A stretch of 64,000 bases of DNA from Methylomonas sp. LW13 (GTDB lineage: Bacteria; Pseudomonadota; Gammaproteobacteria; Methylococcales; Methylomonadaceae): the NCBI RefSeq assembly GCF_016865255.1, contig NZ_CP033381.1:1364001-1428000 (forward strand). The letters are read 5' to 3'. Below the pieces are notes generated by a model. That model was not told the origin of the DNA. It saw nothing but the letters and a program-made list of their open reading frames with translations, and did not search any database. This document shows, one piece after another, positions 40,323-53,770 of this stretch. Every line of letters begins with the position of its first letter. Position 1 is the first letter of the stretch. The translations under genes and the position numbers were made by a program.

Positions 40323-40410
40323 GTGTTATCTCCAGGTATAAAAAAGCCCCGAGGACACGACACAGTCCAACCCCGACGGGGAGAACGGATCATCTCCCCG
40401 AGGCGGGTGA
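40323..40410 (-). promoter_or_regulatory. Hairpin leader 1 (GHKL gene)
   Basis: In the minus-strand RNA, an inner CCCC-GUC-GGGG hairpin is enclosed by GGGGA/UCCUC. The UCC of the outer strand can instead pair with GGA of the ribosome site, and GUGU with ACAC next to the start. Upstream at about 40411-40425 lies ACTGGC/GCCAGT. Confidence 0.45.
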
Positions 40411-40456
40411 TACTGGCTAGGCCAGTGGTTAAGTTAAAGGCCGGTCTAACGCCGAA

Positions 40457-42220
40457 TTACGATGCCAAAGCCAGGTCTGTAGTCGATGGTAGGGAGCCCG
40501 TCCATTCCAACAAGCTGGATTGTTCGTTTTCCAATACCGCATCGGGATCGATGCCTCGGCTGGTCAATACGCTGCTCATCGCCTGGGTTAACAGACAATG
40601 ACCTTTTTCCCGTTCCGACTCGCCGCCGTGCTTGATCGCCCAAAAGGGATCGAAATGGACATGCCGGCTACTGCGTGGACACTGCTTGTTCACTTCGGTG
40701 TGAAACGCCCGATCTAAGTTCTCTGCCTGGTCGAACTGCTGCCAGAAACCATGACCGGCTTGCGTATCCACGGGCGGTAACCAGCGGCGCTGGCGGCCAA
40801 CCCAACGGTTCATCCGGTCGATCAGGGTTTTACTTTTCGGAAAAAAGTGAATGGTGCCGACGCCCGGATAATAGCGAACGTCAAAATAACTGCCGCCTAT
40901 CCGTTCTCCAACCCGAAGCGCGTGAAAATGCTGTCGAAACACCGACACCAAACTCACTTCCGCTTCGGTCTTACCATCGAGCAAGGCAAACACCTTGTCG
41001 AAATCCGCTAACAGCCGTTCTGACTCCCAGTTCAGACTACTATGGTACGACTCAACTTTGTGCCCTGGTAGAACGAACCGAGTGGTTTTGATCCGCATGC
41101 CCAGCGTGCGGTGTTTGTCATTGGATTTCCAGCCCATGTAAAACACCGCGTTATCGCTGTAATAGCGGGTGATCAGATCGAACACATCGCACACCATGCT
41201 CAGTTGAATTTCACCTTGCTGATCGATGATGCCTTGCAGAAATCCATAGATATTCGGCACGGTAAATTCCAAGGACTTCACCGTTTCGAAATCTGACTCC
41301 AAGCGTTTCTGCGCTGCCGATGACAAGCGTGATGTGACCTGTGTCGAGCGTAAGATGCTGGCCCAGGCCCGATTCTTCAGATCGTGATAGCGTTTAAACA
41401 GTGTCAGTTTCACCGCATCCGAAGACGACTCGTCTTCACTGCTGATACCGCCACCGCTCAGTTCGCCGAGCGTTTTGCCCAGCATGGTTCGATAACGGCT
41501 GGCTCGGGCTTCACTGACCACGGCCTGTCGCGCTGCTTCGACCGCGGCATTGAACATCAACACCGCGTTATCGATGAAGGCATTCGGCAAGGCCAGCTCA
41601 TGGGGCAGTTGAAATTCGCCCGCTAAATCGTCGGCCTCCCGCCTATCCTGGCGCAAATCGTCCAGAATACTGCCGAGGATGTCCTGTTCGAACGTCGAAG
41701 TTTTTTTCAACCAGATCAGGGCCACGTCGACCGGCGTTTTGCGTTCGGCATCCTCGCCGGCGAACATTTCTTGCAGAAACTCGACCTCGCCGTGCTGCTC
41801 GATCAACCGTAATAACAGCTGGCGTTCTTTCGAAAACGGATTGCGCACGGTTTCGGCATTGAGAATGGCGACGATTTCACCGTCAAACAATATCTCCCAA
41901 GCCTTCAACACGTGTTTGGCGCCTTCGGCAAACGGCGGATTCATGATGATGTGAGAATAGACACTGCCGCTTTGAAACTGCAGAAAATCCATCCCTACCA
42001 CCGCATAACCTTCATCGCGCAGAACCGCGTGTTTGCGGATATCGATTTCAATGCAATCGATCGGCAAACGTTTACCGTACTGGTATGGCCCTGGACGAAG
42101 CAAATGTCCTTCGCCTGCTGAAGGCTCTAATACCCGAGCGAATTGCTGGTTCTTGAACATCTCCCAAGCTTTACGACTCAGTGCTTCTGGCGTGGGGTAA
42201 TATTGATAAGGGTCTGTCAT
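40457..42220 (-). CDS. DUF4942 protein with N6-methyltransferase-like domain
   Basis: 587 residues. The N-terminal part is a class I methyltransferase fold: RVLEPSAGEGHLLRPG near the SAM site and NPPFAEGAKHV as the NPPF catalytic motif of DNA N6-adenine methylases. The C-terminal half corresponds to DUF4942. The ATG at 42220 follows TTGGAG. Such genes may protect the element's DNA from restriction (inference). Confidence 0.82.
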   Translation of the reverse strand: MTDPYQYYPTPEALSRKAWEMFKNQQFARVLEPSAGEGHLLRPGPYQYGKRLPIDCIEIDIRKHAVLRDEGYAVVGMDFLQFQSGSVYSHIIMNPPFAEGAKHVLKAWEILFDGEIVAILNAETVRNPFSKERQLLLRLIEQHGEVEFLQEMFAGEDAERKTPVDVALIWLKKTSTFEQDILGSILDDLRQDRREADDLAGEFQLPHELALPNAFIDNAVLMFNAAVEAARQAVVSEARASRYRTMLGKTLGELSGGGISSEDESSSDAVKLTLFKRYHDLKNRAWASILRSTQVTSRLSSAAQKRLESDFETVKSLEFTVPNIYGFLQGIIDQQGEIQLSMVCDVFDLITRYYSDNAVFYMGWKSNDKHRTLGMRIKTTRFVLPGHKVESYHSSLNWESERLLADFDKVFALLDGKTEAEVSLVSVFRQHFHALRVGERIGGSYFDVRYYPGVGTIHFFPKSKTLIDRMNRWVGRQRRWLPPVDTQAGHGFWQQFDQAENLDRAFHTEVNKQCPRSSRHVHFDPFWAIKHGGESEREKGHCLLTQAMSSVLTSRGIDPDAVLENEQSSLLEWTGSLPSTTDLALAS

Positions 42221-42290
42221 GGTGTACTCCAAAGAATCCCCTGACGACCGATTTATCCCTGGCGGGATAGAATCATCCCGCAGGGGTAAA
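42221..42290 (-). promoter_or_regulatory. Hairpin leader 2 (DUF4942 gene)
   Basis: AUCCC-GCCA-GGGAU forms the inner hairpin; CCCCUG and CAGGGG (42238-42243 with 42281-42286) can form the outer stem. The ribosome site lies in a small AUUC/GGAGU fold. A separate hairpin CTCGGT/ACCGAG lies at 42299-42313. Confidence 0.45.
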
Positions 42291-42334
42291 ATAAAAAATC
42301 TCGGTTTAACCGAGTGTCGAAATCAAACGGCGCG

Positions 42335-51985: not shown

Positions 51986-53050
51986 CTATGACTGACGCGT
52001 CGATCCCAAGGTCTCGCGAGCCTTGTTCAACGCCTCCGAAGCCGGATCATGAGCGGGTGGCATACCAGAAGCGTCTTGGGGCTGATGATTAACATCACCC
52101 TGAGCCGATGTGGTCTTGGCAACCGCTGATGCTTTATCCAGTTCAGCAATGGCATAGGTCAGATCCAGTCCCACAAACTTGTTATTGGCATAGTCGTAGG
52201 CAGCTTTCCAGGCGCCGGCAAGTGCTGTGCGCCTAACCAGTTCACTGACGGCTTTTTGCACCTTGGGCGGTATCATGGATAAATCAATCACCCGCGGTGG
52301 TTCGACGCTGCCGACAATCGCATCATCGATAACGTCCGCTTCGTCGATACGACTGGCAGTGCCGTTAATCACGCTGCTGTCATTCATGTCGTCGATGCTT
52401 TTGCCATCCATTTCCTCGGCGGCGTATCCGCACTCCTCCGGAAAGGCTGCACGTAGCGAAGCGGCTTTACCGCACTTGGCCAACTGACCTTTCGGCCGTT
52501 TGATCCACATAGCCGTAGGCACTTGTGAGTTTTTACCGCCGGCGGTGCTATAGGCTTCTTGCCAATACACTTCCTCGGTGAATGCACAGCGCTTGCCGCC
52601 AACAATCCGGTACACCGTGACCGCGACCCATTCCGGGAAGGTTACGGTGACACTGGATTCTTGCCATTGCTCGTTGTCGTCTTTGTAGCGGCCGGTGAAG
52701 GTCTTGGTGATGTCAGGTCCCCAAACCGGTCTATCCATGCCGGCCCAAACACCGGTACGCGACGCAGTAGTCTGGATTTCCATGATGGACGGCCAGACAG
52801 TTTCGACATTACGACCCAAGGCGGCACTCCACATCGGCACCACATGAACTGGTTTTTTGAATATATCCAGTTTGCGGGCCTTGCAGTAATCCAGCGCCAT
52901 CATGATGGCTTCCGGGGTTTTAGCGGTTGGGAACGTCACGTCGGTGAGGACTTTCCAGGACTGCTCCGAAATGCCATAGACCTGATTGACATCGATGGGC
53001 ATTGGCAAATTGCGGGTTTTTACAGGATTATTGCGAGGTTGATTGCTCAT
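51986..53050 (-). CDS. bet: Bet/RecT-type single-strand annealing protein
   Basis: 354 residues. Phage Bet-like features: FPTAKTPEAIMMALDYCKAR, the RTGVWAGMD and GRYKDDNE region, and WIKRPKGQLAKCGKAASLRAAFPEE read in parts. It anneals single strands together with the exonuclease and SSB, allowing recombination between elements as in SXT. The ATG at 53050 is preceded by AAGGAGA. Confidence 0.9.
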   Translation of the reverse strand: MSNQPRNNPVKTRNLPMPIDVNQVYGISEQSWKVLTDVTFPTAKTPEAIMMALDYCKARKLDIFKKPVHVVPMWSAALGRNVETVWPSIMEIQTTASRTGVWAGMDRPVWGPDITKTFTGRYKDDNEQWQESSVTVTFPEWVAVTVYRIVGGKRCAFTEEVYWQEAYSTAGGKNSQVPTAMWIKRPKGQLAKCGKAASLRAAFPEECGYAAEEMDGKSIDDMNDSSVINGTASRIDEADVIDDAIVGSVEPPRVIDLSMIPPKVQKAVSELVRRTALAGAWKAAYDYANNKFVGLDLTYAIAELDKASAVAKTTSAQGDVNHQPQDASGMPPAHDPASEALNKARETLGSTRQS

Positions 53051-53120
53051 GGCGTGTCTCCTTAAAAAAATAGAGGACGCAATGCCCCATCTGGGGAGTG
53101 ACGTCCCCATGGGGTGAAAC
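53051..53120 (-). promoter_or_regulatory. Hairpin leader 11 (bet)
   Basis: GGACG/CGUCC forms the outer stem around CCCC-AGAU-GGGG. GCGUCCU can instead pair with AGG and ACGC flanking the ribosome site AAGGAGA. Confidence 0.6.
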
Positions 53121-53196
53121 ACCTAAACAGCGGATGCTGCCAGGCGGGTTAATTAAAGATCAATCTGAATAGCGAATAACAAGGGCAAAAAGCTAC

Positions 53197-53637
53197 TCAG
53201 AAAAACGGAATGTCATCGAAATCCTCATCCAAACCTGCGTCATTAGCCGCAGTAGGCGGTGTAGAGGGTTGACTGGAGTGACGAGGAGCCCCGTTTTCAT
53301 CAGCACGGTCCAGCATCTGTAACTCACGGACAACCACTTCCGTGCGGTAGCGTTTTTCGCCATTTTTATCCCATTGCTGGGTGCGAAGACTACCTTCCAC
53401 ATAGATCTTGCTGCCTTTGCGCAGATACTGCTCGGCCGTATCGGCCAGTTTTTTGAAAAACACCAACCGGTGCCACTCGGTGTGTTCTTGTTTGGCTTTA
53501 GCTTGGTCTTTCCAGACTTCGCTAGTCGCCAAACGTATTGCCACCACCTTGCCGCCGTTATTGGGTAAATACCGAATATCCGGATCGGCGCCGAGTCGGC
53601 CCAGCAATATGACTTTGTTTACACCACGACTTGCCAT
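53197..53637 (-). CDS. ssb: Single-stranded DNA-binding protein
   Basis: 146-residue SSB: OB fold with GVNKVILLGRLGADPDIRYL, TEWHRLVFFKKLADTAEQYL and the acidic C-terminal tip DFDDIPFF that recruits partners. The ATG at 53637 is chosen from homology. Element-borne copy beside bet and exo. Confidence 0.95.
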   Translation of the reverse strand: MASRGVNKVILLGRLGADPDIRYLPNNGGKVVAIRLATSEVWKDQAKAKQEHTEWHRLVFFKKLADTAEQYLRKGSKIYVEGSLRTQQWDKNGEKRYRTEVVVRELQMLDRADENGAPRHSSQPSTPPTAANDAGLDEDFDDIPFF

Positions 53638-53770
53638 GATGAAATCCTCCAATTGGCCGCGCCCGACAAGTGAGAAATAAACCCACCTGCGCGGTGATGG
53701 GTTGGATCCCGGAGGCATACTCCCCAGCAGGGGAATAGGCGTTCCCAAGACAGGGTAGGGTCGAAAACTG
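53638..53770 (-). promoter_or_regulatory. Hairpin leader 12 (ssb), long form
   Basis: A CCCC-UGCU-GGGG hairpin with flanking GG/CC pairing as in the other leaders, followed by an extra hairpin AACCCA/UGGGUU before the GGAGG ribosome site. Upstream lies element E3. Confidence 0.45.

Follow-up and report, generated by a model that had tools for sequence, protein, structure and literature searches.

A six-strand RNA leader with two exclusive folds, a putative translational switch, before the uncoupled genes of a Methylomonas mobile element

The 64,000-nucleotide stretch of Methylomonas sp. LW13 DNA analyzed here (the window) carries a mobile element with a block of 14 minus-strand genes (40323-53637), 12 of them uncoupled and 2 joined to their upstream neighbor, and it raises the question of what the structured leaders preceding the uncoupled genes might do. 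The block encodes the products of ssb, a RecT-type recombinase (bet), a YqaJ exonuclease (exo), a CobS-like AAA ATPase, a DUF3150 protein, a CobT/VWA protein, a DUF4942 protein and a HATPase protein. An earlier note on this DNA, made by eye, had proposed that the leaders form a shared translational switch. We found a common plan of six strands in 11 of the 12 uncoupled leaders and consider it fairly probable, from the modeled folding, that each leader acts as such a switch: the fifth strand would pair either with the second, leaving the ribosome site free, or with the sixth, the leader likely being open while nascent and closed once complete.

Numbered from 5' to 3', the strands are ACCC (strand 1), GGGG with a loop (strand 2), CCCC (strand 3), GGGG (strand 4), strand 5 (for example UGUGCCUC) and strand 6, which extends from the ribosome site to the start codon. 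In the open fold, helix 2:5 encloses helix 3:4. The closed fold, which excludes the open one, consists of 1:4 enclosing 2:3, together with 5:6 over the ribosome site, and its helices 1:4/2:3 compete for strand 2. An automatic scan recovered the nested module in the window leaders and chose another helix for cobS and g220, for which the strands were set by hand. The outer stem with inner hairpin and U-rich spacer described in the earlier note fits 2:5 around 3:4, and the complementarity that it saw between the 3' strand of that stem and the ribosome site is found as 5:6. The two exclusive folds that it assigned to three leaders (g166, cobT and DUF3150) are likewise present, with 11 pairs of 2:5 in each and 11, 12 and 11 pairs of 5:6, respectively; helices 1:4/2:3 are an addition to its description.

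To quantify the pairing, we used a swap test in which a strand is paired with its own partner and with the partners of other leaders, taking non-overlapping segments for the window and for the plasmids pKAZ3 and pVAS114. Among the window leaders (n = 11, ssb excluded), the observed 2:5 pairing was reached in 3 of 20,000 permutations and that of 5:6 in 43, in comparison with 13,129 for the control 2:6, so that the recurrence of the leader before uncoupled genes is borne out beyond chance, with ssb as the atypical case. IncC plasmids are a group known for carrying drug resistance, and one of them, pKAZ3, groups genes for an AAA ATPase, ssb, bet, an exonuclease, a DUF3150 protein and a VWA protein together. 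For pKAZ3 (n = 12) and pVAS114 (n = 14), none of 20,000 permutations reached the observed value for either 2:5 or 5:6, and the controls were reached in 401 and 381; the leaders tested, 12 of 17 and 14 of 18, had been chosen by eye for the motif, with h144b of pVAS114 set by hand. In a plain MAFFT alignment of 22 pKAZ3 and pVAS114 leaders, including that of pKAZ3 bet (alignment A2), an unguided helix scan placed 2:5 first and 2:3 second, with 3:4, 5:6 and 1:4 also appearing, and the RNAalifold consensus was the open fold. Two-sided changes were seen at 8 of the 9 pairs of 2:5, whose covariation score was reached by 0 of 500 shuffles; the counts were also 0 of 500 for 1:4/2:3, and for 5:6 they were 11 of 500 on the score and 1 of 500 on paired cells.

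Larger samples were also tested. For 115 nonredundant leaders, drawn from the best 150 of 342 matches in 30 loci, the swap test gave z values of -20.7 (2:5), -17.3 (5:6), -14.3 (2:3), -4.0 (3:4) and -3.5 (1:4), with controls at -4.1 (2:6), -4.4 (3:6) and, for five others, from -1.5 to +1.3; column excess on the alignment of these leaders ordered the helices 5:6, 2:3, 2:5. Leaders from other types of element (82 of 86 after thinning) gave -14.4 (2:5), -12.9 (5:6), -10.8 (2:3), -8.6 (1:4) and -1.8 (3:4), with controls from -2.3 to +1.3. An alternative assignment, in which the outer stem is 1:4 and 4:6 the extra pairing, was tried and rejected (z of -1.5 in the 115 leaders and +0.3 in the 82). 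Finally, in ortholog sets of 11 window genes, with 3 to 20 nonredundant leaders each, the combined z was -6.9 for 2:5, -6.1 for 5:6 and -1.6 for the control 2:6. Helices 2:5 and 5:6, which exclude each other at the ribosome site, thus both co-vary, as in a riboswitch-like expression platform.

As an independent measure, we built a covariance model (R1) from pKAZ3 and pVAS114 leaders only. With a cutoff of E <= 1 it matched 9 of the 12 window leaders, three of them with E values under 1e-7 (calculated for 188 kb), on the correct strand and ending at the start codon; one extra match (E 0.1) was the reverse strand of the DUF3150 leader. The leaders and the two joined genes, all on the minus strand, are as follows.

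53638-53756, minus: ssb leader (gene start 53637); atypical, with the strand 1-4 module and an extra CCGCGC/GCGCGG module beside the ribosome site (by eye); no R1 match at E <= 1
53051-53115, minus: bet leader (start 53050); R1 E 1.8e-10; 8 pairs in 2:5 and 9 in 5:6
51868-51940, minus: g110 leader (start 51867); 11 pairs in 2:5 and 9 in 5:6; no R1 match at E <= 1
50534-51538, minus: exo (YqaJ), whose start is joined to g110; leader motif and R1 match both absent
50312-50376, minus: g73 leader (start 50311); R1 E 4.3e-3; 9 pairs in 2:5 and 11 in 5:6
49937-50016, minus: leader of the cobS-like AAA ATPase gene (start 49936), strands by hand; R1 E 2.7e-4; 11 pairs in 2:5 and 9 in 5:6
48225-48992, minus: g255, whose start is joined to cobS; leader motif and R1 match both absent
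48142-48205, minus: DUF3150 leader (start 48141), leader 7 of the earlier note; R1 E 8.3e-8; 11 pairs in each of 2:5 and 5:6
46867-46929, minus: cobT/VWA leader (start 46866), leader 6 of the earlier note; R1 E 2.1e-9; 11 pairs in 2:5 and 12 in 5:6
44702-44781, minus: g178 leader (start 44701); strand 2 shifted (GCUUCGGGCG), register by eye; 8 pairs in 5:6, 2:5 absent from the predicted fold; no R1 match at E <= 1
43646-43708, minus: g220 leader (start 43645), strands by hand; R1 E 0.02; 12 pairs in 2:5 and 13 in 5:6
42836-42902, minus: g166 leader (start 42835), leader 3 of the earlier note; R1 E 6.4e-3; 11 pairs in each of 2:5 and 5:6
42221-42287, minus: DUF4942 leader (start 42220), predicted to remain open; R1 E 1.7e-3; 9 pairs in 2:5 and 0 in 5:6
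40323-40409, minus: HATPase leader (start 40322); R1 E 0.83; 14 pairs in 2:5 and 11 in 5:6

A second hairpin-rich repeat, CCGG..CCGGCGTTCCG..CAGGTGCGTCAAGCCTG, lies 5' of the ssb, g73 and g178 leaders (53866-53795, 50466-50390 and 44890-44815, minus strand) and is likewise seen in the relatives L049 and L066 (L numbers denote sequence records). In pKAZ3 and pVAS114, some leaders are preceded by a repeated GCGATAGCTGGTCGCYAAAAAYAAACAGC element (L098 at 11892, 16727 and 20559; L133 at 11825; L099 at 11886, 16341 and 20588), in pKAZ3 within gaps of about 200 nt or more; the two repeats are possibly counterparts.

The absence of the leader before the coupled genes starting at 51538 and 48992, as the earlier note had it, extends to pKAZ3, where 25 of the 31 genes with a gap of more than 20 nt have a leader match vs. 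none of the 6 joined genes (Fisher P = 0.0004). The match lies at the annotated start in 23 of the 25 and at a later in-frame start in 2, and three of the six misses (82358, 82863 and 89919) still show 2:5 or 5:6 pairing by eye. A further match, at start 66187, precedes an unannotated frame of 30 codons. The motif also marks start codons, and for the genes at 79029 and 79301 of the pKAZ3 record (L098/L133) it points to starts farther on in the same frame, at 79065 and 79325. As a candidate trigger we considered a ribosome terminating at the upstream stop codon and rejected it: in pKAZ3, no more than 7 of 23 such stop codons have a C-rich triplet or near-triplet after them.

In whole records at E <= 0.05, R1 found 27 matches in pKAZ3, all on one strand between 65.7 and 92.8 kb, 31 in pVAS114 (29 on one strand) and 7 in pCAR1.3. 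In the host genome, where the block is present in four copies of the integrative and conjugative element (ICE), all 16 matches fell inside these copies (150 of 421 first-look candidates scored); the DUF4942 and HATPase genes were not found in the stretch fetched of one block copy, L033. MOBH plasmids of Citrobacter and Providencia that carry homologs of the AAA/DUF3150 genes gave no R1 match at E <= 0.05, and the motif is therefore not simply tied to these genes. Surveys at E <= 1e-4, run under tighter filters and with only a small number of candidates scored in each genome, gave matches in 17 of 274 genomes of the class and 13 of 398 of the phylum, the own genome being counted in both. Fifteen stretches from 14 of the surveyed genomes contained 86 matches at E <= 0.05 (1 to 12 per stretch). 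The genes in these stretches are for the most part different: matches to a set of 16 pKAZ3 proteins occurred in only 2 of the 15 (5 proteins in L136, ssb in L135), and matches to the 14 window proteins in 11, which outside L136 involved only g220 (7 stretches), g73 (3), ssb (1) and a short piece of DUF4942 (1). Two tested neighbors in these stretches are DUF6094 and SNF2-type helicase proteins, and we take the stretches to resemble ICEclc-type islands. Homologs of g220 and g73 occur in otherwise unlike clusters bearing the same leaders (L134, L137-L140, L142, L145, L147 and L148); such recurrence of single window-type genes would suit a cassette of gene plus leader. Within pKAZ3 (L098), the leaders of the genes at 66801 (AAA) and 71636 (DUF3150) hardly differ in strands 1-5 or in the stretch before them, judging from which a recent copy event is likely. 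Used as a DNA query against E. coli genomes, the pKAZ3 DUF3150 gene matched 91 records (30 of them listed), none below 90% identity.

Minimum-energy folding, predicted throughout without pseudoknots, favored the closed fold by more than 1 kcal/mol in 94 of the 115 leaders and the open fold in 9, the remaining 12 lying within 1 kcal/mol. When the transcript was ended just before strand 6, 2:5 was predicted with at least 5 pairs in 106 of the 115. Of the plasmid leaders, 19 of 26 are predicted to follow a path in which 2:5 forms first and 5:6 with 2:3 comes next, as are 73 of 89 from Methylomonas and its kin and 46 of 86 others (138 of 201 in total; 9 of 11 in the window), in comparison with 0 of 130, 1 of 445 and 2 of 430 shuffled sequences, respectively. 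This path favors a leader that is open when nascent and closes later. Direction, kinetics and trigger, which we predict or infer beyond the observed pairing and its co-variation, could be as follows. The 2:5 hairpin would form in the growing transcript before strand 6 emerges, with the ribosome site exposed; when its synthesis is complete, the leader would refold to 1:4/2:3 plus 5:6 and cover the site, unless a loading ribosome forestalls the closing. Ribosomes loading in the open interval might keep the message in use, late or idle messages would lock, and a long transcript could thereby get one independent valve per gene. The differing letters of the copies would prevent cross-pairing and recombination between leaders.

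Several observations weigh against this reading. The leaders of the 115-set, of the other-element swap test and of the energy and path predictions were picked with the closed fold, with which the 115 were also aligned; the selection favors 2:3 and 5:6, though not 2:5. Among these 115, the controls 2:6 and 3:6 reached z values of about -4, and the co-variation of 1:4 and 3:4 is weak, that of 3:4 also in the 82 other-element leaders. In the counts on alignment A2, 5:6 slid by -2 scores slightly better than 5:6 itself. Single genes are uneven: P < 0.05 was obtained in 6 of the 11 ortholog sets for 2:5 and in 5 for 5:6, the control 2:6 scored equally well in the bet set (P = 0.007), and the three g220 leaders went in the opposite direction for 2:5. 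In a tree-based test per pair, 10 of the 11 single-gene sets were without any pair at E <= 0.1, and the sole such pair, in the HATPase set, falls within the ribosome-site region. Covariation, on which the earlier note had staked its proposal, is thus seen at the level of helices and not of single pairs within ortholog sets. Furthermore, pairing between the loop portion of strand 2 and strand 5 could coexist with 2:3, which pseudoknot-free predictions do not represent, and in the window g178 and DUF4942 are off the predicted path, in addition to the atypical ssb.

The pattern of conservation bears on an alternative in which the hairpin of strands 1-4 is bound by a trans-acting factor, either a protein or a metabolite from the element or its host, that sets the fold, so that the whole block responds together. 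In the 115 leaders, strand 1 is near invariant (A 0.93, CCC 0.96-0.99), as are the GG/CC cores of strands 2-4, and the other positions vary, as if the cores were recognized; the near-invariant ACCC and GGG/CC make a binding factor possible, and by binding strands 1-4 it could bias the choice of fold. On the other hand, conservation of 80% or more is confined to 11 of the 48 positions in strands 1-5, all in ACCC, GGG, CC and GG, the loops are not conserved, and no ligand-binding core of the riboswitch or aptamer type was found across the 115 leaders. No such factor was identified from this pattern, and we regard control by one as unlikely. The predominance of the closed fold (94 of 115) would also suit a plain 5:6 hairpin that constitutively reduces the translation of each gene without switching, and an attenuator before bet in SXT is reported to hinder expression (available text of PMC4542580). 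Such damping is nevertheless improbable, as it has no need of 2:5, the most strongly co-varying helix.

Intrinsic transcription attenuation, with 2:5 and a following U-run as terminator and 1:4/2:3 as antiterminator, finds some support in the U-run of at least 4 after strand 5 in 66 of 89 leaders of Methylomonas and its kin. The U-run is present, however, in only 2 of 14 pKAZ3, 3 of 11 pVAS114, 0 of 1 pCAR1.3 and 27 of 86 other-element leaders, and 5:6, which co-varies strongly, has no role in such a mechanism, making it quite improbable. A scan for terminator-like patterns in 38600-54000 gave 25 sites on both strands vs. 17.2 in shuffled sequence, which speaks neither for nor against attenuation. 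That the leaders are RNA-processing or stability elements cutting the polycistronic message ahead of each gene would match their one-per-translation-unit occurrence in long same-strand arrays, and is scarcely credible given that the ribosome site belongs to a co-varying helix and that joined genes lack the element.

In the surroundings of the block, FlhD and FlhC family proteins are encoded at 36232-37474, a pair that we take to be akin to AcaCD/SetCD. Sigma-70-like promoter patterns are rarer in 38600-54000 than in shuffled sequence (3 vs. 13.3, standard deviation 3.7), which would fit a single long operon. On the plus strand, 54816-58766 encodes a patatin, a DncV-like nucleotidyltransferase and a ThiF/E2-like protein, presumably cargo resembling a cyclic oligonucleotide-based antiphage signaling system (CBASS).

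Should the switch operate as predicted, protein output of the block, which in pKAZ3 holds recombination and DNA-methylation genes, would be mispredicted from transcript data such as those on the AcaCD/SetCD regulons. Although IncC plasmids and SXT-like elements have been studied intensively, the leader stands before 25 of 31 uncoupled genes in the single IncC plasmid examined. With one two-state RNA present in so many diverged natural versions within a single plasmid, the mechanism can be tested directly. Tentatively, and with more doubt than confidence, we suggest that conjugative elements of several distinct lineages may share a plug-in gene format, a gene with its own sequence-orthogonal RNA timer that would be translated only from fresh transcript, by which dozens of genes behind one master promoter could be opened and closed without a dedicated regulator.

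Searches of Rfam gave no match to the motif at the gathering score in the window, in 40000-54800, or in L134-L140, L138, L139 and L098. Below that score, 40000-54800 gave three chance-level matches at E <= 5, and L138, L139 and L098 gave four at E <= 1; L134-L140 returned a group II intron only. Similarly, a literature search, with most subscription papers beyond its reach, found no published account of the reiteration, two-fold anatomy or spread, and the parts of PMC3118119, PMC4207636 and PMC9709138 under the terms hairpin, leader and translational contain no account of such leaders. The proposal of a shared translational switch is thus supported structurally, by the exclusive co-varying helices, the absence before joined genes, the lack of an Rfam match where searched and the reported bet attenuator, and partly supported overall.

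In translational riboswitches, anti-sequestering and sequestering strands compete at the ribosome site. The leaders share such competing strands and differ in having no conserved ligand-binding core and in occurring in dozens of copies per gene block. Judging from the available text of PMC7826253, the S004-repA stem-loop of Salmonella genomic island 1 (SGI1), an island mobilized by IncC plasmids, likewise masks a ribosome site, but it enforces translational coupling, whereas here the joined genes are those without the motif. Messenger RNAs of the hok type, in the portion of PMC6733600 seen, also form a metastable nascent hairpin and then a fold occluding the ribosome site, a sequence of events only predicted for our leaders. 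Unlike hok, the leaders are local, about 55 to 90 nt long, reiterated 27 times in one plasmid and placed before nontoxin genes, long-range or antisense pairing not having been looked for here. The closest parallel is with SXT/R391: according to the available text of PMC4542580, reporting Garriss et al. 2013, bet and exo are highly transcribed in SXT, but a translational attenuator located before bet hinders their expression; it is said to occur in IncA/C plasmids too. The leader stands at the same place and would act at the same level, being found directly upstream of bet in the window, in pKAZ3 (as a seed leader of R1) and in the virome contig L158 (E 1.1e-9), whose Bet is 77% identical and whose identity as SXT is not established. 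The SXT attenuator is reported, in the same text, for one gene; here, in a comparison that does not extend to the published structure, leaders with two exclusive co-varying folds precede most uncoupled genes and recur in other types of element.

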